Of a stretch of 46,035 nucleotides of DNA, positions 31,251-46,035 are shown in pieces. The position numbers were made by a program, and so were the translations under genes. Source of the DNA: Peptococcaceae bacterium (lineage in GTDB: Bacteria; Bacillota; Desulfitobacteriia; Desulfitobacteriales; Syntrophobotulaceae); assembly GCA_012520405.1 (NCBI GenBank), contig JAAYOJ010000204.1:1-46035 (forward strand), written 5' to 3'. Numbering within the stretch: position 1 is the stretch's first letter; each line of letters opens with the position of its first letter. Under the pieces are notes generated by a model. It was not told where the DNA came from, made no database searches, and worked only from the letters and a program-made list of their open reading frames with translations.

Positions 31251-33257
31251 TTATACCGTTTGGATCTGGCCGGAAGCTTGCTTATTTCTCCTGCCTTTTC
31301 TCATAAGGTAAACAACAATTCCGATAATAGCGGCTACAGCGACAAGTCCCGCGCCAAAGCCTTCCCCTAATGTACCGACAGTAATTAGAGTTCCAATCTG
31401 GTATACAAAGAAAGCTAAAACATAACCCATCCCTAATTGAAAACCAAGAGCCCCAAACAGCCACTTGCGTGATTCCATTTCGGAGTTCATGGCACCTATA
31501 GCTGCAAAACATGGCGGTGTAAAGAGATTAAAGACCAGATAAGCAAGCCCCGCTGCCGCACTAATACCAAAAATTGCATTAACTTCAGCACTACCGCCAA
31601 CCAGAGCAAATTCTTCAGTGTCAATAAAATTGCTTACAGCAAAAGTAACTGCTAAAGTGCCTACCACGTTTTCCTTGGCAATAAATCCTGTTACTGCTGC
31701 TGCCGCAAACTGCCACAGACCAAAGCCAAGTGGAATAAATAATATCGCTAAAGGAGTTGCTAAACTGGCCAAGATACTTGTCTCCGGAGCATTTTCGGCA
31801 ACTACTTGGAATTGCCAGTCGAAGCTCTGCAAGATTTGTATGACGGCGTTGCAAACCAGAATAATGGTACCGGCTTTAATAATAAATGCTTTGGCTCGCG
31901 AAAACATGGAGATGGTTGCCCTCTTGATACTTGGAACCCTGTATTTCGGTAGTTCCATAATAAAATAAGACTTTGAATAATCTCCGGTGATTTGTCTAAT
32001 AATTAGCGCGCTGATAATAATAACCAAAATGGCGAGGAAATACATAGAAGTTCCTACCCAGGCCTTCTCGCCAAAGAATACACCGGCGAAAAGGGCAATG
32101 ACTGGGAGTTTAGCACCACAAGGCATAAAGGGAGTCAACATTGCCGTGGTGCGTCTTTGCCTTGCGTTCTTTATGGTTCTGGTGGCCATAACACCGGGTA
32201 TGCTGCAGCCGGTACCAACTATCATAGGAATAATTGATCTGCCGGACAAGCCAACTTTTTTAAAGAATCTATCCATGACAATAGCAACCCGGGCCATATA
32301 GCCACTGTCCTCCAAAAGCGCCAAACAGAAAAATAAGACCATAATCAAGGGCAAAAATCCAATGACCGCCCCGACACCGCCAATAATTCCATCAAGCAAC
32401 AAGGCGCCCAGAACAGGATTTACTTCTTCTCCTAGTAGTGAAGCTACGCCCTCATACAGTAAATCAATCCAGCCCACAAAGACATCAGCCAGCAATGGTC
32501 CAACCCAGGACTGAGAAATTGAAAATACTAAGTAAATAACTGCTGCAAAAATCGGTATCCCCAGCCACTTGTGAGTAATGATACGATCAGCCTGATCTTG
32601 AATAGTTTGCCTCTCCGGACTTATCTTCTTCCGCTCTACTTCCGTTACAAGGGAGTTAACAAAAGTATAGCGTTTTTTATCCACTTTCTCAGATTCTTCC
32701 TTGGATAAAGCTTTTGTAGCGCTCAGTTTAAGCGGAGCTTCTTGTTTCTTGTCGGACTTACCGGCAGCGATTACCGCCTTTATTAGTTCAGGCAAACCGT
32801 TATTGGTCGCTTTAGTCGATATAGTTCGAATAACGGGACATTTCAATTTTTCACTTAAAACCGGAACATTTATTGTAATACCCGATTTCTCAGCCAAATC
32901 GCTCTTATTAAGGGCCACCACAATTGGTATCCCCAGTTCCAGTAATTGAGTAGAGAAAAACAAACTTCTGCTTAGATTGGTCGAGTCTACGATGTTGATA
33001 ATCACATCGGGCCTTTCATTTTGAATAAAGTCTTTGGTAACCGTCTCTTCACTCGTATAGGGCGACATGGAGTAGGCACCAGGCAAGTCCACCACAACTA
33101 GATTCTCGTTGTTAGGGTTAAGACTCTGTTTAACCTTACCTTCCTTCTTCTCAACTGTTACCCCAGGCCAGTTTCCGACATGCTCTATTTTGCCCGTAAT
33201 TGCGTTAAACAAAGTTGTTTTACCACAATTAGGGTTTCCTGCTAATGCGACTTTCAT
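31251..33257 (-). CDS. feoB: Ferrous iron transporter FeoB
   Basis: A 668-residue Fe2+ transporter with an N-terminal GTPase domain. G1 is GNPNCGKTT, G3 is DLPGAYS and G4 is NKSD. A helical GDI-like domain precedes a membrane part with two gate domains (FLPLIMVLFFCLALLEDSGYMARVA and a matching LFIPLGFGLWQFAAAAVTGF) and the Cys-containing segments IVGTGCSIPGVMATR and FTPPCFAAIGAMN. The start is put at 33257 (MKVALAGNP), where GGAGG is 5 nt away; an in-frame ATG at 33281 has no such site. It lies in the operon feoA-feoB-Cys-rich peptide, 73 bp after feoA. Confidence 0.95.
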   Translation of the reverse strand: MKVALAGNPNCGKTTLFNAITGKIEHVGNWPGVTVEKKEGKVKQSLNPNNENLVVVDLPGAYSMSPYTSEETVTKDFIQNERPDVIINIVDSTNLSRSLFFSTQLLELGIPIVVALNKSDLAEKSGITINVPVLSEKLKCPVIRTISTKATNNGLPELIKAVIAAGKSDKKQEAPLKLSATKALSKEESEKVDKKRYTFVNSLVTEVERKKISPERQTIQDQADRIITHKWLGIPIFAAVIYLVFSISQSWVGPLLADVFVGWIDLLYEGVASLLGEEVNPVLGALLLDGIIGGVGAVIGFLPLIMVLFFCLALLEDSGYMARVAIVMDRFFKKVGLSGRSIIPMIVGTGCSIPGVMATRTIKNARQRRTTAMLTPFMPCGAKLPVIALFAGVFFGEKAWVGTSMYFLAILVIIISALIIRQITGDYSKSYFIMELPKYRVPSIKRATISMFSRAKAFIIKAGTIILVCNAVIQILQSFDWQFQVVAENAPETSILASLATPLAILFIPLGFGLWQFAAAAVTGFIAKENVVGTLAVTFAVSNFIDTEEFALVGGSAEVNAIFGISAAAGLAYLVFNLFTPPCFAAIGAMNSEMESRKWLFGALGFQLGMGYVLAFFVYQIGTLITVGTLGEGFGAGLVAVAAIIGIVVYLMRKGRRNKQASGQIQTV

Positions 33258-33330
33258 AGTGTCCTCCTCTAAGACATGCAAACTAAATCTATTTTTCAGC
33301 CGGTACTACCTTTCACTGGCTTAGCGTACT

Positions 33331-33770: not shown

Positions 33771-35399
33771 TTAAGCCATAAACAATTCTATATCCTCATC
33801 AACTGTGCCGATACCGGCAATGCCGAATTTCTCAACTAAAACTTTAGCTACATTGGGAGACAGGAAGCCCGGCAAAGTGGGGCCAAGGTGGATATTCTTT
33901 ATACCAAGATACAGCAGGGCCAGCAATACTATTACAGCTTTCTGCTCGTACCAAGCAATATTGAAGGCAAGCGGTAGTTTATTAATGTCGTCCAGGCCGA
34001 ATACTTCTTTCAGCTTCAGAGCAATTAAAGCCAGTGAATAGGAGTCGTTGCACTGTCCGGCATCCAATACTCTGGGAATTCCACCGATATCCCCCAGATT
34101 AAGCTTATTATAGCGATACTTTGCACAGCCGGCGGTGAGAATAACAGTGTCCTGCGGTAGTTTTTGGGCAAATTCGGTGTAATATGCCCTGGATTTCATA
34201 CGTCCGTCACACCCAGCCATAACAAAGAATTTTTTAATGGCGCCGGATTTGACAGCGTCAACCACCTTGTCCGCCACAGCCAGCACCTGATTATAGGCAA
34301 AGCCACCTACAATGCTACCGGTTTCAATTTCATCCGGAGCAGGAAGAGTCTTGGCAAGAGCAATGATCCCAGAAAAATCTTTCTTGCCCTTTTCATCAGG
34401 CATAATGTGTTTGCAGCCCGGGAAACCGGTGGAACCGGTGGTGAAAATTCTGTTTCTAATCTCTTCGCTTCTGGGCGGCACGATACAGTTAGTAGTGAAC
34501 AAAATAGGCCCATGGAAAGATGCAAACTCATCCAGCTGCTTCCACCAGGCGTTGCCGTAATTTCCGACAAAGTGGCTGTATTTTTTAAAAGCAGGATAAT
34601 AATGAGCGGGCAACATTTCGCTATGGGTATAAACGTCCACGCCCGTATCCTCGGTCTGTTCAAGCAGCTGTTCCAAGTCAACCAAATCGTGACCGGAAAT
34701 CAGGATTGCCGGATTTTTTCTTACTCCGATATTCACTTCCGTAATCTCGGGCTTGCCGTACCTGGAGGTGTTGGCTTCATCGAGAAGGGCCATAGCCTTT
34801 ACACCATATTCCCCTGTTTTCAGCGTCAACGCCACAAGGTCATCGGCGGTGAGGGAATCATCCAGCAATGCTGCCAGGGTCTCATAAATATAGGCATTAA
34901 TCTCTAGGTTCTCCTTACCGATATTCTGAGCATGTTCCGTATAAGCAGCCATGCCCTTGAGACCGTAAGTAATCATTTCTCGGAGGGAACGCACATCCTC
35001 GTCTGTAGTGGCCAACACTCCGACGGAGGCAGCCTTTTCCAGCATAGACGCTCTGGAATTAGCGGTAAAGGTCGCGGCGTCGTGCAAGGTTCCGACATCA
35101 ATCGTTTTTTTGAGTTCATCACGGATGGCGAGCATTTTCATAATCTGTTTTTCTATAGCATCTTCGTCAAAATTAGCATTGGTGATTGTCATGAAGAGAC
35201 TGCTTAGTACTTCATAATTCGTATCACCAAGCTTTTTAACATCCAATTTCCCTTTAACTACAAGCTCCGAAATTCCTTTCAGCGTGTAGATTAGTAGGTC
35301 CTGCAGACGGGCGAGCTCTTCATTTTTTCCACATACACCACGGACTGTACAGCCTTTTCCCCCCGCAGTCTCCTGACACTGATAGCAAAACATACTCAT
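33771..35399 (-). CDS. hcp: Hydroxylamine reductase (class I hybrid cluster protein)
   Basis: A 542-residue cytoplasmic FeS protein. The N-terminal cysteines read [19 protein letters not shown], spacing CX2CX8CX5C, the class I arrangement found in anaerobes that binds a cubane cluster. Hybrid-cluster ligands are in the second half: [41 protein letters not shown] and [17 protein letters not shown]. Hcp reduces hydroxylamine in vitro; in vivo it is linked to nitric oxide detoxification (NO to N2O). The rubredoxin gene is 27 bp upstream, and this pairing suggests an electron donor. GGAGGAAG precedes the ATG. Confidence 0.95.
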
Positions 35400-35748: not shown

Positions 35749-36636
35749 TTAGGACGTTCTTGTAAGCTTTTTGCCTGCTGTTGAGCATGGAACCGGCTTT
35801 CTCCGGTCAAAAACATAATTGCTGGCGTTCTTATCATGAAGTAAGGATAGAGCTTCATCTAGGCCTTCACCCAACTCATCAAGGGAATGGGCATCAGAAC
35901 CTACGGTAAACACTTTTATTCCCGATTTTATTGCTAAATCCAAAATCTCTTTGGTTGGATGAAATTCTTTTAAACCTCTTCTACGGCTTGAAGTATTGAT
36001 TTCAATTCCCATTTCTCTCTTTTCCATTTCTTTAAATACCGGTTCTATAGCTCCACGATGAAGAGTGTAGGCATTAACACCTAAAAATTGAACGCCATAT
36101 CTCCTATAAAGATCAATATGGGCGATGCAATCAAAAAGATTTGTTTTCACTGCTTCCATTAATACTGCAAAATATTCTTCCCGTACTGTAGCAGCACTCC
36201 TGCTCTTAAAATAGTACGGGCTTTCTTTTTTGGAAGAAATAGAAAGGTGGTCCAGACAGTGAATTGCGCCCATAACAAAATCGAAGGGGTAGTTATTAAC
36301 AATTTTTTCAATATAATTTTCCTCACCGGGGCAATATCCTATCTCTACGCCGGCCTTAATTTTAAGGCCGGATTCTTTAAATTCAGTTTGGGCCTGGGTA
36401 ATTTCCCTAAAATAACTGTCCAACCAGTTAAGCTTGTAAACAGAGTGTTTTACTCCATTTAGCCTGACGAAGTTATCCTTTGCTTTTCGCTCAGGATCCA
36501 ATTCAATATGAGTGCAAAAACAAATCTCCCTCAATTTCAAAGCTAATGCTTTATGGCAAAAGTCCTTTATAGTAGCGGCAGAGGCATCTATGGAATAATT
36601 GGGGTGAACATGATAATCGGTTTTATAATTATGCAC
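35749..36636 (-). CDS. PHP-domain phosphoesterase (HisK-like)
   Basis: A 295-residue polymerase-and-histidinol-phosphatase (PHP) domain protein. Metal-binding motifs follow the family order: YHVHPNYSIDA at the N-terminus, FCTHIE, AGVEIGY, MGAIHCLD, IAHIDLYRR and VGSDAHS. Histidinol-phosphatase of histidine synthesis is the best-known member of this size. No his genes are near, so another phosphoester substrate is possible. The start is GTG at 36636 with GGAGG upstream. The gene follows the terminator-like hairpin at 36673-36706, which leaves little space for its own promoter. Confidence 0.75.
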   Translation of the reverse strand: MHNYKTDYHVHPNYSIDASAATIKDFCHKALALKLREICFCTHIELDPERKAKDNFVRLNGVKHSVYKLNWLDSYFREITQAQTEFKESGLKIKAGVEIGYCPGEENYIEKIVNNYPFDFVMGAIHCLDHLSISSKKESPYYFKSRSAATVREEYFAVLMEAVKTNLFDCIAHIDLYRRYGVQFLGVNAYTLHRGAIEPVFKEMEKREMGIEINTSSRRRGLKEFHPTKEILDLAIKSGIKVFTVGSDAHSLDELGEGLDEALSLLHDKNASNYVFDRRKPVPCSTAGKKLTRTS

Positions 36637-36760: not shown

Positions 36761-38395
36761 TTATTTATAATCCCATCCCATCTCTTTCAACTTATTGACA
36801 TATTTCAGCAGGTCTTGTCTGGAGGAAACATTGAGCTTCATATAGATACGCTTATTATGGGTTTTTATGGTATTTATGCTCAGGCAGAGAATTTGCGTGA
36901 TTTCTTTAGCTGTATAGCCTTGTACATAGAGATTAAAAACAGCTCGTTCCGCAGGCGAAAGGGTCTTGGTGTTATTTACGAATTCCTTAAACACCGTTTC
37001 AGATAAATCTGCCTCGGACTTTAACGAAGGTTCTTCATTTTGGACCGAAAGGAACTGAATAAGATCATCTATCTCAGGAATTTTCGTGACAGGATTACGG
37101 CTAAAATCCTTAGATTTAATAATATCCAGCCCTTCCGTTATGGGTTTCAGATAGCGGCGGCTGATGAGGGAAGATAACACAACTCCAACGATAAATAAAA
37201 TCAAGCAGAGAAAAGTCAAACGCATCTTTGCATAGGTAAGTTGTGAAGTCACATCTTTTTGTGGCAACATGATGGCTACAGCCCATTTTTGATCTTCAAA
37301 GACTGATCCTTTAGGATAAAGCTGAACCTCCTCATGTAAGCCGATAAAAGCAATATCTTTTTCCAGGACATAGGTAGATAAAGATTTCGGGCCCTTGGCA
37401 ATCCAGAGGGACTGGCCGGGCAATCCGCTGTCATGAGCAAGATATCCTCCTGCAAACAAAGCTTCTGAGCTATGGAGCACAGTATCTTTAAAGGGAGAAA
37501 GCATAGAGAAAATACGACTGTAGTTACTATTATCGGGCATATAGGTAAGCTTAAACAACATAGAGCTGACCTCAAAGCCACACACTCCAAACACATTGCC
37601 GTAAGAATCAAGGAGAGGTATGGAACACAGCATAACTTTTTCACTGGTCCCCGGTAAAATAAGCGAGGGGCTCCAATAATACAGGCGAGAAAGTGGAAGC
37701 CGGTATTTTTTGGCCCGCTCCAATGGCAATTGATAATAGCATGCCCCCCTTATATCCATTTCCATAGCCCATTGGGAATGGAGAGGAAGGGAATTTTTAC
37801 GGGCAATATTCGGAAAGCCGCGAAGAACCTGAATCGTAGGAGCGGATGAACTTATAATATTCGGTTCCATATTCTTTAAATATAAGCCCGCTCGAGAGTA
37901 GGCGGCATTTTCTAAATTAGGGTTCACCGTGGCATCTAAAATAACAAAGACACCACTACTCTTGGCCTTCTGCAGAGAAAATAAAAGGCGTTCGTATTCA
38001 TTTTCTATGATATCTTCTAAAAGCTCAGGATGGTTAGGCAAATCCTTAATCTGAAGCCCACGATTCAGAAGATTTTTTTCCATACTTTCAGATAAGCCTC
38101 TGGACAGATCCACCGCATAAACGGAAAGGTTCCCAAACTGTTTATAAATATCATCTCTCATATAGGATAGTTCTCTTTGCATTGCTTTAATGTTTTCATT
38201 TTGCCCGGCGGTGAAGGAGCCTGTTCCCAAGAGAATTACAATAACACCAAAAAGCATGGTAAATACAAGCACGATTAAAAATAAAAACAGCCTAAGGCGC
38301 ATAGGAATACCAAAAGTATTGGCATTTTCTAAAATTTTCCATAAATTATGAACCTTCGTTTTTAGGGATAATTCTTTAAGGAACAACTCAATCAC
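36761..38395 (-). CDS. Membrane-anchored LuxR-type regulator with extracellular sensor
   Basis: A 544-residue one-component regulator. A first membrane helix (about 32-58, RLRLFLFLIVLVFTMLFGVI) leads into a large extracytoplasmic domain of some 330 residues. This has a helical start and paired alpha/beta halves like double-Cache sensors (DATVNPNLENAAYSRAG; SIPLLDSYGNVFGVCGFEVS). A second helix (about 391-416) returns to the cytoplasm. After a short linker, residues 478-540 are a LuxR/FixJ HTH (LSPAERAVFNLYVQGYTAKE, then SINTIKTHNKRIYMKL). No kinase, receiver or HAMP domain is evident. It lies 12 bp after a solute-binding lipoprotein gene, which suggests that the two cooperate in ligand sensing. 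Confidence 0.8.
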   Translation of the reverse strand: MIELFLKELSLKTKVHNLWKILENANTFGIPMRLRLFLFLIVLVFTMLFGVIVILLGTGSFTAGQNENIKAMQRELSYMRDDIYKQFGNLSVYAVDLSRGLSESMEKNLLNRGLQIKDLPNHPELLEDIIENEYERLLFSLQKAKSSGVFVILDATVNPNLENAAYSRAGLYLKNMEPNIISSSAPTIQVLRGFPNIARKNSLPLHSQWAMEMDIRGACYYQLPLERAKKYRLPLSRLYYWSPSLILPGTSEKVMLCSIPLLDSYGNVFGVCGFEVSSMLFKLTYMPDNSNYSRIFSMLSPFKDTVLHSSEALFAGGYLAHDSGLPGQSLWIAKGPKSLSTYVLEKDIAFIGLHEEVQLYPKGSVFEDQKWAVAIMLPQKDVTSQLTYAKMRLTFLCLILFIVGVVLSSLISRRYLKPITEGLDIIKSKDFSRNPVTKIPEIDDLIQFLSVQNEEPSLKSEADLSETVFKEFVNNTKTLSPAERAVFNLYVQGYTAKEITQILCLSINTIKTHNKRIYMKLNVSSRQDLLKYVNKLKEMGWDYK

Positions 38396-38407
38396 CTAAA
38401 TGCATTT

Positions 38408-39832
38408 TTATCTGCCAAAGATCAGATCGTTGATAAAATGTTCACAAACCCCTTTAGACACACTGTCAAAAACCGCCTCGGGGTCTTGGTCTTGGTCTTG
38501 GATCTGTTGTTGGTATTTTTCCTTGGAAGAAGATGCAGTGGCTATTAAACGTTCCTCATAGTCTTTCTGCATTTCATCAAACCCTTCTACAACAGGGGGT
38601 ATATAAAAATCATAGTCTTGCTGCATCTGGATCACCGTAGTGCGGAGAGCAGCGATTCGAGCATCGGTATAGCTTTCAATCCCATTGTCCATAACATTGC
38701 CATAAGCTTCTTTGGTCACAGGAAGATAGCCCGAGCCCGTGGAAGAAACAAAGGTCAGATTTTGCTTTGTGGCTGTAAACCATTTCAAAAAAACAACCGC
38801 CGCATATTCTTTTTCCGGGGTGGAGTTCATAACGCACATCCCGCTGCCCCTCTGTATAGCGACCTTTTTTCCTCCCTCAAAGACAGGATAAGGTAAGATA
38901 GCATACTCAGCCGGCTCAGTTGTGTTATCCCCATAGGTAATGATTGGGGAGAAAAATAAGACCCCGGCCGTAGAACCAGTGCTACAGACTACATCGCCGG
39001 TTTTGGCAAGGTCAGAAGCATAGCCATTAAAGATAGCAATGTGGCCCCGAACAGCGGGGGAATAATAACAATTCCAGATCCGTAAAAACTCAGGCGCTGA
39101 AAGCTGAAGCCGTCCATCCTTAATAAACTCTTTACCTAACTGCTTATAGCCTACTTGAGCAAGATTAAACAAGGAATCAGGGACATAAAAGGCCTTGCCG
39201 TCGTTAGCAATTTCCGGGGTTTGCTTATCAGTCCACTCATAATATTTCTCTGCGGCTTCCAGTATCCCTTCAAAAGTTGCTAAGCTATCTAAACTAATTC
39301 CGGTCTCTTCGGAAAATCGATTGAAAATGGTTTTATTAACAAAAAGAACCTCTGTGGATTTAGCGAAAGGAAATACATAAAGCTTTTTATCGGTCAAACG
39401 CCCCTCTTCCAAGAACTGGGGTATATAGGCAGCGAGCTCCTCCTCAGTAAAAAAGGGGTCCAGCTCAAGAAGCAAATCCTTTTCTGCAAGAATCAAAGCG
39501 GTTTTAGGGTAAACCGTAGAAATATCCGGTAAGGCAGGTGCTCCGGGATCACCGTTAGCTGCCATGGTAAGCTTTTTGTGGAGATCAGCAGAGCCGGATA
39601 TGGAGGTTACGCTAAGAACAATACCCTCCTCCGCTCCCACAGTCGCATTGAATTCATCCACCATAGCGTCCATGGTGTCCTTCATTTGCCCTCCGAAATT
39701 ATGCCATATAGTTAACGTCACAGGTTGCTTAGGACTGAGCAGCTTTTTACTTTGGCAGCCGGTAAGCAACAGGAGGAAAGTCAATAGGCAAATAAAGGCG
39801 GTATAAAACTTCCTCCTCTTTTCTCTATGCAC
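38408..39832 (-). CDS. Extracellular solute-binding lipoprotein (ABC family 1-like)
   Basis: A 474-residue substrate-binding protein. The signal peptide ends in the lipobox LLTGC, so it is anchored to the outer face of the membrane. VTLTIWHNFGGQMKDTMDAM and DPGAPALPDISTVYP, then VFPFAKSTEVLFVNKTIF, are typical of carbohydrate-type binding proteins. VFLKWFTATKQN is the usual late segment. No permease or ATPase gene is adjacent; the only partner is the membrane LuxR-type gene directly downstream. That suggests a sensory rather than a transport role, though an unlinked transporter is possible. The start is GTG at 39832, with AAGGGGG eight nt upstream. Confidence 0.85.
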   Translation of the reverse strand: MHREKRRKFYTAFICLLTFLLLLTGCQSKKLLSPKQPVTLTIWHNFGGQMKDTMDAMVDEFNATVGAEEGIVLSVTSISGSADLHKKLTMAANGDPGAPALPDISTVYPKTALILAEKDLLLELDPFFTEEELAAYIPQFLEEGRLTDKKLYVFPFAKSTEVLFVNKTIFNRFSEETGISLDSLATFEGILEAAEKYYEWTDKQTPEIANDGKAFYVPDSLFNLAQVGYKQLGKEFIKDGRLQLSAPEFLRIWNCYYSPAVRGHIAIFNGYASDLAKTGDVVCSTGSTAGVLFFSPIITYGDNTTEPAEYAILPYPVFEGGKKVAIQRGSGMCVMNSTPEKEYAAVVFLKWFTATKQNLTFVSSTGSGYLPVTKEAYGNVMDNGIESYTDARIAALRTTVIQMQQDYDFYIPPVVEGFDEMQKDYEERLIATASSSKEKYQQQIQDQDQDPEAVFDSVSKGVCEHFINDLIFGR

Positions 39833-39916
39833 CCGAAAAACCCCCTTTTATTTAATTTTTAAGTTACTATATCCTTTTTACCAGATATTGGACAGAATTA
39901 AAACACCTTTGAGAAA

Positions 39917-39983
39917 AAAATCACCCCAAAATCACCCCTTAAAATCACCCCATCTATAGCTTTATTCATCTCATGGGGTGATT
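39917..39983. repeat. Cluster of TCACCCC elements in a divergent promoter region
   Basis: AAAATCACCCC occurs at 39917-39927, 39928-39938 and 39941-39951, spaced 11 and 13 bp. An inverted copy GGGGTGATT lies at 39975-39983. Repeats at about one helical turn, in a gap between divergent genes, look like an operator array. No strong -35/-10 pair is seen on either side, which fits activator-dependent promoters. The nearby membrane LuxR-type protein is the obvious candidate binder. Confidence 0.65.
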
Positions 39984-40047
39984 ACAACTCCCAAAATTAA
40001 TTACACAATGAACTTATGAAAACCATTTGCAAGAAAGGAGTTAAAGC

Positions 40048-40800
40048 ATGAAAAAAGTTTTTACAGTTTTCGTTTCTTTGTCCATCATCCTCTTCTTCCT
40101 GCTTAGCGGTTGTGGAGGCAGCCAAGAGACCGGCAAAACTGCGGAGCAAAAGTCTGCCGCCCAGCAAGGACAATCCCAAGCTGCAGAACCACCCGCTGAA
40201 GAACAGGAGGCTTCGAATGGTTCGGAAGAAGAAGCCCAGGCGGAAGAGGCGGAAGAGCCTGAAGAGCCTGAAGAGTCCGCCACTATGCCCGAAATGGGAG
40301 ACCGGCTGGCAAAGGCCTACAAAGATTTAATGGCCAGCGGCAAGTATTATATGAAATACCGCATGACCGCTGATGGGGAAAGCATTGACGCGGAAATTGC
40401 CTACAATGGTGATGATTTTGCCACCAAAACCGTGGTGGGCGGCACGGAAAACCGTATGATTATCAAAGACAAAAAGATGTATATGATTGATCACGATACC
40501 AAGACGGTTATGATTATGAGCTCTGCGGATTTTGAAGAGGAAGAAGAAGATATTGACTACGCAGGATTAGTCTTTGTAAAAGACGGACAGGGAGATTTCC
40601 TGGGCCAAACTCTCCCCTATGAAGAATATTCCGAAGATGGCACCCTCGTAAAATACTTCTTCCAGGGTAATAAACTGGTAGGCATGGAAATGAATATCGA
40701 CGGAATGATCCAAGTGTTAGAGATTTTCGAATTGAGCGGAAATATACCTTCCGGTATGTTTGACATCCCCAAAGATTATGAACAGCAAAATATAGGCTAA
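40048..40800 (+). CDS. Lipoprotein with Glu/Ala-rich linker (hypothetical)
   Basis: A 250-residue lipoprotein. The signal peptide ends in LLSGC. Residues 25-80 form a low-complexity acidic linker rich in Glu, Ala and Pro. The folded part (about 80-245) alternates strands in the manner of LolA-like or DUF4412-like outer-surface proteins (YYMKYRMTADGESIDAEIAY, MIIKDKKMYMIDHDTKTVMI); this fold guess is weak. AAGGAG lies 7-8 nt before the ATG. It is the first gene of an envelope operon running to the window edge, divergent from the solute-binding gene across the TCACCCC array. Confidence 0.7.
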   Translation: MKKVFTVFVSLSIILFFLLSGCGGSQETGKTAEQKSAAQQGQSQAAEPPAEEQEASNGSEEEAQAEEAEEPEEPEESATMPEMGDRLAKAYKDLMASGKYYMKYRMTADGESIDAEIAYNGDDFATKTVVGGTENRMIIKDKKMYMIDHDTKTVMIMSSADFEEEEEDIDYAGLVFVKDGQGDFLGQTLPYEEYSEDGTLVKYFFQGNKLVGMEMNIDGMIQVLEIFELSGNIPSGMFDIPKDYEQQNIG

Positions 40801-40862
40801 ACCATAATATGTCAAATTATCAGAAAACTAATAATTTTTAAAAAAGTGAGGAGAGATTGATA

Positions 40863-41207
40863 ATGAGTGAAAACCAAATAAACAACCTTGATGTTCCGGA
40901 GTTTGATCCTGAAGACATTGAAAAAGGAAAAACCATGGCAGGTCTTGCCTATATCTTATTTTTCCTCCCCCTCATTGTTTGTCCGGATTCTTCTTTTGGA
41001 AAATTCCATGCCAATCAGGGTCTTTTGCTTTTAATTACCGGCGTTGTCGGTACCGTAGTTTTAAGCATTATCCCTATTATCGGCTGGATACTGTTGCCTC
41101 TTTTTTCCCTAGTGCTTCTGGTCTTTGTGATAATAGGACTTATCAATGGGCTGCAAGGAAAAGTAAAACGGCTACCGCTCATTGGCAAATTTAATATTAT
41201 TAAATAA
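40863..41207 (+). CDS. Small membrane protein (DUF4870-like)
   Basis: A 114-residue protein with a hydrophilic N-terminus and three hydrophobic segments (MAGLAYILFFLPLIV, GLLLLITGVVGTVVLSIIPII and LPLFSLVLLVFVIIGLI). The FGKFHANQGLLLLI segment recalls DUF4870-type proteins, in which an F-H-A-x-Q motif precedes a helix. The function is unknown. The start ATG at 40863 is set by GAGGAG nine nt upstream. It lies 62 bp after the preceding lipoprotein gene, in the same orientation. Confidence 0.65.
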   Translation: MSENQINNLDVPEFDPEDIEKGKTMAGLAYILFFLPLIVCPDSSFGKFHANQGLLLLITGVVGTVVLSIIPIIGWILLPLFSLVLLVFVIIGLINGLQGKVKRLPLIGKFNIIK

Positions 41208-41244: not shown

Positions 41245-41736
41245 ATGAAAAAAGCCTTTATCCTTTGTCTGATACTTGTTCTCATTCTTATTCCAGCAGG
41301 CTGTAAAAGCCCATCGGAGATGGCTGCCGAAAAGTTAACTGAAAAAGTTTTAGAAGATATAACCGGAGGCAAGGTCAATGTTGATGGGGAGAAGGTCACC
41401 ATAGAAACAGAGGATGGTTCTGAATTATCCCTAGGAGGCAATGAATGGCCTAAGGATAAGCTCGGTAAGGCTATCCCCAAACTGGATGGGAAGGTAACCT
41501 ATGTAGCCAACTCCGATGCATTGTGCATGATTACCGTGGAAGGTATCAAGACTGCGGAATTTGAAAAATATCTGGAAAAAGTCAAAGACGCAGGTTACAC
41601 CCAAAATGAAGTCAGCTACTCGGATAGTTCATCCAAGGCCTACATGGCTACCAATGCCGATGATATTGCTTTCCAACTCACTTACCTGATTGAAAGCGAA
41701 GAGGTCACTATAACCGTTGGCAAAAACCAAAAGTAA
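41245..41736 (+). CDS. Small lipoprotein, single WP-type domain (DUF6591-like)
   Basis: A 163-residue lipoprotein with lipobox IPAGC. After a short helical stretch, one domain (about 72-160) shows the order EWPKDKLGKAIPKLDGKV, a strand, AEFEKYLEKVKDAGYTQ, more strands. The same order occurs in the next gene, so they are paralogues. It resembles proteins I have seen labelled DUF6591, with unknown function. AAGGAG precedes the ATG. Confidence 0.7.
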   Translation: MKKAFILCLILVLILIPAGCKSPSEMAAEKLTEKVLEDITGGKVNVDGEKVTIETEDGSELSLGGNEWPKDKLGKAIPKLDGKVTYVANSDALCMITVEGIKTAEFEKYLEKVKDAGYTQNEVSYSDSSSKAYMATNADDIAFQLTYLIESEEVTITVGKNQK

Positions 41737-41760: not shown

Positions 41761-42522
41761 ATGAAAAAATATTTTATTGTCATCTTAGCCATTTTCCTTA
41801 TTTTCGCCCTTATACCCGGTTGCGGAGATAACTCAGAAAAAAACCAGGGGCCTTCGGAGGCTCTAAATGAGCTGGAAGAAGCCGGTGAAGCCCTTGAAGA
41901 TCTTGAAGAAGCTATGTCCTTCTTAGCAAACCCTGGCTGGCCAACGGGCAAAATCTCCGATAAAATTCCCGAGTACCCTTATGGTGAAGTAACCAATTCC
42001 GGAGACTTTGGAGACGGAGAATATGCCATCACAATCTCCCCCACCAATAAAGAGGAATTAGAAGAGTATTTTAATCTTCTTGAATCACAGGGCTTTACCA
42101 TTACCGATGCGGGGCGTGGGGCAAGACTAGGTACTGTCGCCATTCGCACCCAATTTAAATCCTCTGATACCTTGCAACTGATCGTTTCGGATTTGGGGAC
42201 ATCCGAGTGGCCTGCTTTCCCCGGAGAGCTTCTTCCTCCCGATAAAGGAATCCTCTATGGCGAACCCTATATCGTCGAGTTATCCGATAGTGATAAGGCC
42301 AGCGGTCATTATTATTCAGCCAGCTTCACTCTTATAGATCTCACCGAAGAAGATGGCTATGCCTTTGTAGATAAGCAAGTGGACAATGGCTGGTCTGGCG
42401 GCTATGATATGGCCTCCAAAGAAGTCCAAATTGACGGTGTGACTTGTGAATTGATGTTTCAATTCGTCCAGTATGATGACGAGCAAGCTGACTTTATTTT
42501 AGAGGCATGGGCAAAACAATAA
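41761..42522 (+). CDS. Lipoprotein with a duplicated WP-type domain
   Basis: A 253-residue lipoprotein with lipobox IPGC and a short acidic coiled stretch (ALNELEEAGEALEDLEEA). The first domain (about 58-142) starts GWPTGKISDKIPEYPYGEV and contains LEEYFNLLESQGFTI, paralogous to the preceding gene. A second, more diverged copy (about 148-253) starts EWPAFPGELLPP and contains YAFVDKQVDNGWSG in the equivalent helix. AAAGGA lies upstream of the ATG, 24 bp after the previous stop. Its role is unknown; the membership in this operon points to the cell surface. Confidence 0.7.
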   Translation: MKKYFIVILAIFLIFALIPGCGDNSEKNQGPSEALNELEEAGEALEDLEEAMSFLANPGWPTGKISDKIPEYPYGEVTNSGDFGDGEYAITISPTNKEELEEYFNLLESQGFTITDAGRGARLGTVAIRTQFKSSDTLQLIVSDLGTSEWPAFPGELLPPDKGILYGEPYIVELSDSDKASGHYYSASFTLIDLTEEDGYAFVDKQVDNGWSGGYDMASKEVQIDGVTCELMFQFVQYDDEQADFILEAWAKQ

Positions 42523-42555: not shown

Positions 42556-45500
42556 ATGTCTTTTCGGAAAACCATAGCAGTGATATTAAGCATTTTATTA
42601 GTGGCCGGAAGTCTTGGCGGCTGCAACAGCGAAACTGCAGTCAACACCCTTAGTGAAGTAAATAAAGAAGACGAAAAATATAAAGATCTCCAACCACCTA
42701 AGACCGGCCCTGTGGGGGAATGGGATATTCCCATTCCCGAAATCAATCCCTTGGGTTCTCAAGATCTTTATTATTCAACGCATTATAATGAACTGGAAAG
42801 CCATGGAGTAAACTATATCGATAATTTCGTTGAAAACAATATTACCTTAAATGGAGAAACCTGGACCTTAGAAGTGGAAGATCCTTCAGGTGCTCCCCTC
42901 TACTTCCTAAAAAAATATGCTGAACAAAATAAGATGAAGATCTTTAGCAGTTATTACGGGGATCGTTTAACCTTCCAACTGGCCAAAGACGAGGATAGCC
43001 TCTGGTGGGGTGACGCCCAGGCCGATAATAACGGCTATAGATTAACCGTGGTAAAAGAACTCCGTGTCCCCGTAGGCAAGGAAAAGAAATTTACCCTGGC
43101 TGATTTAGACCCGGAGGTTGACGAGATTTCCTTTGTAACCTCCAGCTCAGGCGAAAAATTCCAATCCGCAGCCTTGAAACTTCCAGATGGGGAACTTAAT
43201 CTCACAATCCACGGAAACAATTCTTCTAGCATGGTGACTCGCCGCATTTATAAATCGTATCAATTTTCAGCCCATAAATCCAAGGAATTTGTCATCGATG
43301 ACCTGCCCCAAGGGCAAGGGGACTTGACTTGGGAATTTTCTTGGAGAGACAATTCCAAGCCTTCCGAGTTTTCGTTTATGTTGGCTGAGTTACAGGACCT
43401 TCCTTCTGTGAAACTGGGGGATGAGCTTGGTGCCCTTAAGGTATGCGGTGTTCCTTTTGGTGATGTGGTTGTTGAACCCCAAGACGGTCTAGAAATTAGC
43501 CATATAGACGACTATTCCATAGAAGGAGATCTTACCCCTGAAGGAGATACCCTCTTCTGGCTACCATCAGGTCTATGGAATTTGGTCCTCACTGACTTAA
43601 CCGCGGGACTTACAGGAAGCACGACACGGCTTGTTCCCGTCAATGCTGGGGAAATCACCACCTTAACCTTACCCACCTCTTTAAAAACTGCCTATACCAA
43701 TCTCAACACAATTTTTGCGGAGCCTGAAGACCTTACCGGGGGCATAACAATCCTCGAAACTAAAGATTCCGGGAGCCAAGCCACCATCTCCCTGGAAGTC
43801 AATGATCCGCAAAAACGCGATGTTTTTCCCACCATAGAAAACACCGTTATCACAGAAGGGGGTAAAGAAGTAGAGATTACGGATATCACCCGGCAGATCA
43901 CCCCTCCAAGTGTAGTTTTGGTCTTAGACTCTTCCGGTTCTATGAAGAAAGAAATGGCTGCTACGCTGGAAGCTGCCAAGGAATTCATCAATAACTTACC
44001 GGATAATAGCTATATCAAAGTAATTGACTTTGATTCCAGAGTCAAAGTTCTGCCTGGGGAAACCAAGGAAGATGTAATTAAAAGTCTCTCTTCCGTGGTT
44101 GCCGAAGGCTCTACCGTGCTTTTTGATGCCACTTTAGAGGGCTTACGCCAACTGGCAGACAAAGCTCGACCTACCTTAGTGGTCTTTGCTGACGGTGCTG
44201 ATTCCAGTCTGGATGGCCAGGGCGTAGGCAGCAGGGCTGATAAAAGACAAGTCCTGGAAAAAATCGAGGAGGCCAACATCCCCGTCTTCACCATCGGCTT
44301 TGGTGAAAATCCCGATGCTACAGCTATGAAGGAGTTCGCAGCAGCTTCCGGCGGACGGTATTTCAGCGCTAAAGACGAAAAGGCTCTCACCGAAGTTTTT
44401 ACAGCAATTAGCGGAACCTTTGGCAACTCTTTTGTAATGACCTATAACCGTCCCAAGGAAGCCAGTTTTACCGAGACCCCTGTGATCTCTCTAGTTTTGG
44501 ATGTCTCCGGCTCCATGGACACAGACCCTGCCGAAGAGGAGGGCTGCGACTTCCGTATAGATAAGACCAAAAAGCTCTTCCATGACTTTATCCTCAAGCT
44601 CCCCGAGAACTATCTCACCCAACTGATCAGCTTTCAAACCAGTGTTGTAGGTTCACCCATTATCAAGCTGGGACAGATCACCACTCAAGATAAGGGTCAA
44701 CTGCTACAGAGTCTAGGTGAACTCAAAGCATACGGCGGGACTCCTATCCTACGGGCCTTAACCATTGCCTATGAGAATATTCGAGCAGTACCTTCCAACA
44801 AGAAAGCCATCGTATTTCTCACCGATGCCGCTCTCGAGGTGGATGAAGATGAAAAGGCCGAGTTTGAAAAAATTATCGCCCAAATTAAGGAAGACAATAT
44901 TGCGGTACTCTGGGCCGGCATAGGAGTAGAGGAGCATAAGGAGGCATTTGCCAAGGCCGCCTCTCTCTCCGAAGGTAGCTATGTCGTTACCGAAAATGCA
45001 GAGGGCTTGCAGGCTTCCCTAAACGATCTGCTGGCTTCCATCGAAAAGATGAATACCACTCAGGAACTCCCCCTAACCATTCAAATCAATGACAAAGACC
45101 CTACAGGTAGCCTCTTGAGCTATGCCACCACTGAGTATGTGAATTTTACGGCGCCTCCGAAATCCGGTGAAATTATCGCCCCTGATGTAACGCAAATCTC
45201 CACCGGAACTCCCCTGAAGCGTTATGACAGCCAGACTGCTGCCCTGGTCACCGGAACGGGTATTCCCGGCATGGATACCATTCTTACCAAAAGAATTCCC
45301 ATTAATAGCCAAACCAGTAATAAAGCTATGGAGCTTACCGTTAAAGAAGCCTATTACTTTAGCAAATTCAAGGGTTTGGAACCCCCTGCGAATAAGCAGT
45401 TTTTAGCCCTTGAACTGCAATTGAAAAATATCACTCCCGACAAAATCCCTTACCTAATCCCCAGCTTTAGCTCCCATTTTTATGTGAACATCAATAATGA

Positions 45501-46035
45501 AGGCAGCTATCCCGCTTCACAGGCAACCTGGCTGACAGAAACTCCCCTTTCTTTACCCGGAGAACCGGAAGTAACCCTTTCTCCGAAAGAGGATTTAACA
45601 GGAACCCTGGTATTTGTTATTCCTGATGAGCCGGTAACCCAGACCTCCCTACATTTCTATGATTTAGGATACGAACACATCCACCTCCCTTTAATTGGCA
45701 AGATGGATAAAACATTTCAACAATTAGATGAATTGCCCGTGAAGGCACCTGCTAAGATTACCGATGCCTTTTCCATAGCTGTCACAGCTTCTAAACTAGT
45801 GGATAAGGTGGATATTTACCCCACAAAAGAGCGCAACGATCTGCTTTACCAAATAGTTGAAGCAGATTTCACCACCAAAGTCCAGGCCCTGCTCGATATT
45901 CAGCCTCATGAACGCTTATGGTTAAGAATCCATACTGCCAACGGTCCTCTGCTTACTAAAATGAGTGAGGTTACTAACGTGATGCCCTTTGGCTTTGCCT
46001 CCCCGGTAATGCTGGCCCCCTCTTCCATTAATAAA
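42556..46035 (+). CDS. Large lipoprotein with two vWA domains (3' end outside window)
   Basis: An open frame of 1160 codons from ATG 42556 that runs off the right edge. The signal peptide ends in lipobox LGGC. An N-terminal region (about 45-430) has no family I recognise. The first vWA domain starts near residue 450 with a complete MIDAS: DSSGS at 458, Thr in GSTVLFDATL, Asp in FADGAD. A second vWA domain starts near 643 with DVSGS at 649, GGTPILRAL and LTDAALE. Residues about 925-1055 resemble a DUF4352-type immunoglobulin fold (FLALELQLKN, LPGEPEV, TGTLVFVIPDE). A weak GGTG precedes the start, 33 bp after the previous stop. Such vWA domains bind metal and mediate protein contacts; this is probably a surface adhesion or scaffold protein. 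Confidence 0.85.
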   Translation, partial: MSFRKTIAVILSILLVAGSLGGCNSETAVNTLSEVNKEDEKYKDLQPPKTGPVGEWDIPIPEINPLGSQDLYYSTHYNELESHGVNYIDNFVENNITLNGETWTLEVEDPSGAPLYFLKKYAEQNKMKIFSSYYGDRLTFQLAKDEDSLWWGDAQADNNGYRLTVVKELRVPVGKEKKFTLADLDPEVDEISFVTSSSGEKFQSAALKLPDGELNLTIHGNNSSSMVTRRIYKSYQFSAHKSKEFVIDDLPQGQGDLTWEFSWRDNSKPSEFSFMLAELQDLPSVKLGDELGALKVCGVPFGDVVVEPQDGLEISHIDDYSIEGDLTPEGDTLFWLPSGLWNLVLTDLTAGLTGSTTRLVPVNAGEITTLTLPTSLKTAYTNLNTIFAEPEDLTGGITILETKDSGSQATISLEVNDPQKRDVFPTIENTVITEGGKEVEITDITRQITPPSVVLVLDSSGSMKKEMAATLEAAKEFINNLPDNSYIKVIDFDSRVKVLPGETKEDVIKSLSSVVAEGSTVLFDATLEGLRQLADKARPTLVVFADGADSSLDGQGVGSRADKRQVLEKIEEANIPVFTIGFGENPDATAMKEFAAASGGRYFSAKDEKALTEVFTAISGTFGNSFVMTYNRPKEASFTETPVISLVLDVSGSMDTDPAEEEGCDFRIDKTKKLFHDFILKLPENYLTQLISFQTSVVGSPIIKLGQITTQDKGQLLQSLGELKAYGGTPILRALTIAYENIRAVPSNKKAIVFLTDAALEVDEDEKAEFEKIIAQIKEDNIAVLWAGIGVEEHKEAFAKAASLSEGSYVVTENAEGLQASLNDLLASIEKMNTTQELPLTIQINDKDPTGSLLSYATTEYVNFTAPPKSGEIIAPDVTQISTGTPLKRYDSQTAALVTGTGIPGMDTILTKRIPINSQTSNKAMELTVKEAYYFSKFKGLEPPANKQFLALELQLKNITPDKIPYLIPSFSSHFYVNINNEGSYPASQATWLTETPLSLPGEPEVTLSPKEDLTGTLVFVIPDEPVTQTSLHFYDLGYEHIHLPLIGKMDKTFQQLDELPVKAPAKITDAFSIAVTASKLVDKVDIYPTKERNDLLYQIVEADFTTKVQALLDIQPHERLWLRIHTANGPLLTKMSEVTNVMPFGFASPVMLAPSSINK

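Follow-up and report, generated by a model that had tools for sequence, protein, structure and literature searches.

A solute-binding lipoprotein paired with a LuxR-headed membrane regulator: a candidate kinase-free signaling circuit in Clostridia and relatives

The window, by which we mean the whole stretch of 46,035 nucleotides analyzed here, comes from a Peptococcaceae bacterium and carries on its minus strand a gene for a solute-binding protein (SBP) and, 12 bp downstream, a gene for a membrane regulator (Table 1). The SBP belongs to the SBP_bac_8 family (Pfam, 1.1e-29) and carries an LLTGC lipobox. Its AlphaFold model (pLDDT 88.4) matched UgpB, sugar and dinucleotide-binding SBPs in the PDB, and the protein combines the fold, export signal and lipobox of a sugar/UgpB-type ABC SBP. 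A previous sequence-only reading had described a lipobox-carrying ABC-type binding protein gene 12 bp from a sensor gene, which the open reading frames and Pfam bear out. On the other side of the pair lie genes for a PHP-domain phosphoesterase (35749-36636), a hydroxylamine reductase (prismane; 33771-35399) and FeoB (31251-33281), with no sign of linkage between these neighbors and the pair.

The regulator has two predicted transmembrane (TM) helices, at about residues 34-58 and 398-420, which by hydrophobicity and the structural model would bracket about 340 amino acids. This portion has the dCache fold, a long helix with two PAS-like modules: Foldseek matched the AlphaFold model (pLDDT 80.7) to many dCache ligand-binding domains in the PDB with E values of about 1e-7 to 1e-5. 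The order TM helix, Cache-like domain, TM helix and LuxR-type helix-turn-helix (HTH) had been proposed from the letters alone and proved right, with the Cache assignment resting on the fold and not on Pfam, in which the window regulator gave no dCache_1/Cache match and its GGDEF-headed relatives gave weak matches below the cut-off. The HTH scored 51.4 bits against a curated GerE cut-off of 23.5 (E 8.5e-14), placing it in the LuxR/GerE family. No kinase or receiver domain was found by Pfam in the 544 residues; with TM helices and a DNA-binding domain in one chain, the protein is a transmembrane one-component regulator.

Table 1. Features of the pair, its candidate operator and the divergent operon (window positions).
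Feature	Position	Strand	Basis
Membrane one-component regulator, 544 aa: TM1, dCache sensor, TM2, LuxR-type HTH	36761..38395	-	Pfam, hydrophobicity, AlphaFold
LuxR/GerE HTH, residues 478-532	36800..36964	-	Pfam; segment LSINTIKTHNKRIYMKLNV nearly invariant among core group
Extracytoplasmic dCache-fold sensor domain, about residues 59-397	37205..38221	-	AlphaFold model and Foldseek PDB matches; TM limits inferred
Orphan solute-binding lipoprotein, SBP_bac_8, 474 aa	38408..39832	-	Pfam, alignment, AlphaFold, PDB matches
Binding-protein lipobox LTGC, Cys26	39755..39766	-	Sequence, alignment
Operator half-site GGGGTGATT on SBP sense strand, 11 bp from previous (39930..39938)	39919..39927	-	Conserved repeats
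Operator half-site GGGGTGATT on SBP sense strand, 13 bp from previous (39943..39951)	39930..39938	-	Conserved repeats
Operator half-site GGGGTGATT on SBP sense strand	39943..39951	-	Conserved repeats
Operator half-site GGGGTGATT (left arm AATCACCCC on SBP sense strand)	39975..39983	+	Conserved repeats
Candidate target: 250-aa lipoprotein, first gene of divergent operon	40048..40800	+	Conserved divergent neighbor
Candidate target: DUF4870-like small membrane protein	40857..41207	+	Pfam; conserved divergent neighbor
Candidate target: DUF6591 lipoprotein	41245..41736	+	Pfam; conserved divergent neighbor
Candidate target: 253-aa lipoprotein	41761..42522	+	Conserved divergent neighbor
Candidate target: very large VWA-domain lipoprotein, runs off window	42556..46035	+	VWA 1.1e-24

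We determined how regularly the two genes occur together. A regulator query against genome contigs yielded 26 loci, of which one was spurious; L055, which matched part of the HTH only, was dropped. Searches with the sensor domain alone found matches in 12 of 83 genomes of the organism's own class and in 43 of 391 evenly sampled genomes of the class of Sinanaerobacter, the genus of the culturable S. chloroacetimidivorans BAD-6, which carries locus L044. Among sensor genes of at least 430 codons whose upstream sequence exceeds 1300 nt (n=51, not all independent cases since some loci are closely related, e.g. L166 and L170), an SBP gene of the same family lies directly 5' on the same strand in 50 across Clostridia and relatives, separated from the sensor gene by -23 to +168 bp. 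As the SBP was absent from the sensor-domain queries, the pairing is not a search artefact. Two loci lack the SBP: L167, which keeps operator and regulator, and L169, whose regulator is split and which falls outside the count of 51. The pairing is thus near-obligate by computation, and the failure of co-conservation that would have spoken against the initial proposal did not appear. The SBP of L043 (705-2078) has no lipobox cysteine and may be anchored by an N-terminal helix instead of lipid. In some loci the 3' end of the regulator gene is overlapped or followed by a gene for a second, small HTH protein (L046:9496-9852 and L074:1440-2030), and the protein of L074 likewise resembles the LuxR HTH.

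Sugar and glycerol-phosphate SBPs of this type would ordinarily serve a linked or cognate permease, and one explanation of the locus is an ordinary uptake cassette in which permease and ATPase are encoded elsewhere, the regulator is attached, and the SBP serves mainly for transport. Some known SBPs have no linked transporter genes (PMC9602780), and the UgpB/sugar-type fold is in keeping with uptake. The genomic record points the other way. Between 28 and 46 kb of the window we saw no gene for a permease, ABC ATPase, kinase or receiver, as the sequence-only reading had stated, and a motif scan of the loci revealed no MalF/MalG-type permease beside any pair, so that homologous pairs do not regularly carry permeases. 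ABC genes occur near the pairs of L049/L050 and L045, and were rejected as cognate transporters because they encode an ABC-2 exporter and a housekeeping ECF module, respectively. The organism's own draft genome (95.8% complete) holds one copy of the SBP family and 11 BPD_transp_1 permeases; the ten strongest, which were classified, resemble permeases for sulfonate/taurine, molybdate, betaine and polar amino acids, with no sugar/UgpB (glycerol-phosphate) type among them. We therefore consider an uptake cassette very unlikely.

The more distant sensors are 700-1030 aa long and carry GGDEF, GGDEF-EAL or hybrid histidine kinase heads at their C termini, and every non-LuxR-headed sensor with upstream sequence has an SBP. 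The SBP and sensor trees agree closely (r=0.95 over 49 pairs; 0.95 within LuxR and 0.91 within other heads, against a shuffled maximum of 0.44 for LuxR), an agreement that is in itself no proof of contact because the two genes travel together. LuxR heads form a single split in both trees. The pattern suggests that SBP plus dCache form the input unit and that the head is what varies.

Upstream of the SBP gene, repeats at 39917-39983 that the initial reading had singled out as possible binding sites are real and conserved in relatives; in the window they comprise three copies of AATCACCCC/T and one inverted GGGGTGATT. The conserved array is a palindrome, AATCACCC-NNN-GGGTGATT; at many loci tandem GGGGTGATT half-sites follow at intervals of 11-13 bp, with the first of them about 23 bp beyond the palindrome. 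The window copy has a degenerate inner right arm, so that one inverted half-site and three tandem ones remain. At a threshold of at least 8 matching bases out of 9, AATCACCCC/GGGGTGATT half-sites stand before the SBP gene at 25 of the 27 core LuxR loci, where shuffles gave an expectation of 2.06 and a maximum of 6. By contrast, half-sites were found before the SBP gene at none of eight LuxR loci with diverged HTHs and none of 14 loci with other heads. Within the HTH, segment INTIKTHNKRIY hardly varies across the core LuxR group and differs in the diverged group. Together, these results indicate that the presence of the site follows the DNA-binding head, not the SBP gene, and phylogenetic footprinting supports the conserved half-site array as the predicted DNA target of the regulator.

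Loci with diverged HTHs have different repeats upstream of the pair (L166:2869-2960, GGGGTAGG; L164:2254-2273, TTTATCACCC; L165:2199-2279, GGGTGGGG). The repeats TGGGGTAGGAAAA in L166 and TTTATCACCC, twice, in L164 are suggestive and too few for a claim; possibly these are operators that changed together with the HTH. In genome G042, near-palindromes of the form TATCACCC...GGGTGATA adjoin large MalT-like LuxR genes and were set aside as apparently another system. Palindromes TATCACCCNNNGGGTGATA and similar lie there at L082:6115, L082:12083 and L083:11603, near MalT-like LuxR proteins of 827 and 849 aa, which suggests that G042 has a further LuxR system whose operator is similar.

Allowing one mismatch at most, we found 0-3 copies of the palindrome in each of 17 whole genomes, and a reversed control gave no hits in any of them. 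The pattern misses the window's own site because of the degenerate inner right arm. In the organism's own genome no second strong operator was found beyond the local site, and the only other candidate was an unrelated weak palindrome. Most genome-wide sites lie at the pair locus or before genes of the same target families, namely DUF4870 proteins, small lipoproteins and the large VWA lipoprotein; the two remaining sites have no clear target. We treated one site, G095:C54:539, as chance since it overlaps a coding start, and a double site in G097:C352 was set aside as lacking a clear target.

The divergent operon listed in Table 1 is kept, with the same target families, in about 20 core loci, and its members recur elsewhere with operators of their own. 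DUF4870 relatives have one in L056 (5180, within the locus) and in L102 (1474, an unlinked DUF4870 gene with a lipoprotein gene). Large VWA lipoprotein genes are preceded by one in L084, L085 and L104; unlinked VWA lipoprotein relatives in genomes G001 and G087 carry it. In L106 the operator stands before a lipoprotein gene 2.4 kb from the pair, whose product is related to the lipoprotein encoded divergently from the pair in L056. In several genomes the divergent operon extends into conserved genes for a set of zinc-ribbon proteins (L041 3714-5215, L044 3715-5277 and L107 3117-4630), and AIM24-family genes run in the same direction as the divergent operon in L035 and L036.

The best reading of these observations, to which we assign a probability of about 0.7, is a membrane transcription factor gated by a binding protein and controlling itself and a regulon of surface lipoproteins; within it, contact, signal direction and DNA binding are inferences, and regulation may be of either sign. 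The lipid-anchored SBP would catch a solute outside the cell and, in its liganded (or unliganded) form, dock on the dCache domain of its partner. Docking would alter the dimeric state of the membrane regulator, whose cytoplasmic LuxR HTHs would then bind or release the operator, an inverted pair with tandem GGGGTGATT half-sites at a divergent promoter. The operator would control the SBP-regulator operon itself (autoregulation) as well as the divergent operon, which encodes surface lipoproteins, a DUF4870 membrane protein and the large VWA lipoprotein. An outside signal thus probably reaches DNA through one membrane protein.

It is common for dCache domains to bind small ligands on their own, and the sensor's fold relatives are dCache domains that bind small molecules directly. 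The sensor might accordingly bind the signal alone, with the SBP a regulated product, either a scavenger or part of a transporter encoded elsewhere, that stands outside the signal input; L167, which retains operator and regulator in the absence of an SBP, fits such an arrangement. However, the SBP gene also lies directly upstream of sensors with GGDEF, EAL and histidine kinase heads, where the operator is absent, and shared regulation therefore does not explain the linkage. Against a role as transporter part, moreover, stands the finding that none of the ten permeases classified in the organism's own genome is of a matching type. Direct sensing by the dCache domain alone is, on this evidence, unlikely.

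Within the preferred reading of a binding-protein-gated transcription factor, the regulator might instead be a repressor, or might need proteolytic release, with the operator array acting as a roadblock and not as an activation site. A promoter scan placed candidate promoters on either side of the operator depending on the species. The operator lies near the SBP start, with better promoter candidates upstream, in L044, L046, L049, L050, L052, L054, L056 and L159, as expected of a roadblock, whereas in the window, L036-L038, L042, L043, L045 and L152-L155 it lies 5' of a -10 box whose -35 is poor, an activator-like arrangement. We hold this variant to be possible but doubtful.

Several known systems share parts of this design. 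In NspS/MbaA, a polyamine SBP works with a GGDEF-EAL receptor that has a cyclic-di-GMP output; the GGDEF- and GGDEF-EAL-headed relatives found here look alike as SBP-gated receptors, a likeness of architecture, whereas direct DNA binding is predicted for the LuxR-headed clade. The nearest precedent is ChiS of Vibrio cholerae, a hybrid sensor kinase with chitin uptake genes as targets, in contrast to the kinase- and receiver-free regulator described here. In both cases an SBP acts, or would act, on a membrane-anchored DNA-binding protein: CBP, a chitin-binding periplasmic SBP, activates membrane-bound ChiS (PMC11856585), and Pchb activation by ChiS needs two helically phased sites (PMC13316777). 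ChiS carries a cryptic HTH variant (PMC8092284), whereas the present family combines a standard LuxR HTH with a transporter-less SBP in Clostridia and relatives. According to passages in PMC9602780 and PMC6321045, the SBPs of XylFII-LytS and LuxP-LuxQ present ligand to a membrane sensor, which signals through a kinase, unlike the LuxR-headed regulator. CadC, ToxR and TfoS are likewise one-component regulators that act from the membrane, and the main text of a survey of transmembrane transcription regulators mentions neither LuxR, Cache nor solute-binding partners (PMC10269533). Among open-licence papers, a scope that makes this weak evidence, we found no description of the LuxR-headed family.

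The circuit from SBP to LuxR-headed regulator put forward in the sequence-only reading thus gains from the pairing, the lack of a linked permease and a DNA target predicted by footprinting, while its novelty narrows to the LuxR-headed, kinase-free form. That form appears new; SBP-gated receptors and membrane-bound transcription factors are known separately and, in ChiS/CBP, together (PMC11856585). We consider it reasonably likely that Clostridia and relatives share an SBP/dCache cassette with interchangeable outputs, one clade of which, headed by LuxR, is a family of kinase-free SBP-gated transcription factors that has an operator code of its own and whose regulon comprises VWA and other surface lipoproteins.

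SBP-gated receptors surveyed so far comprise chemoreceptors, sensor kinases, cyclic-di-GMP enzymes and Ser/Thr kinases (PMC9602780); if our reading is true, that list would gain a new output, and the shortest, in the form of a plain DNA-binding regulator. With four kinds of output behind one input pair, nature would in effect have run a domain-swap experiment, and target prediction and reporter assays would be straightforward thanks to the short conserved operator. For uncultured anaerobes, the system would make conserved surface genes of unknown function accessible through their regulation, among them those for DUF4870 and DUF6591 proteins and large VWA lipoproteins.
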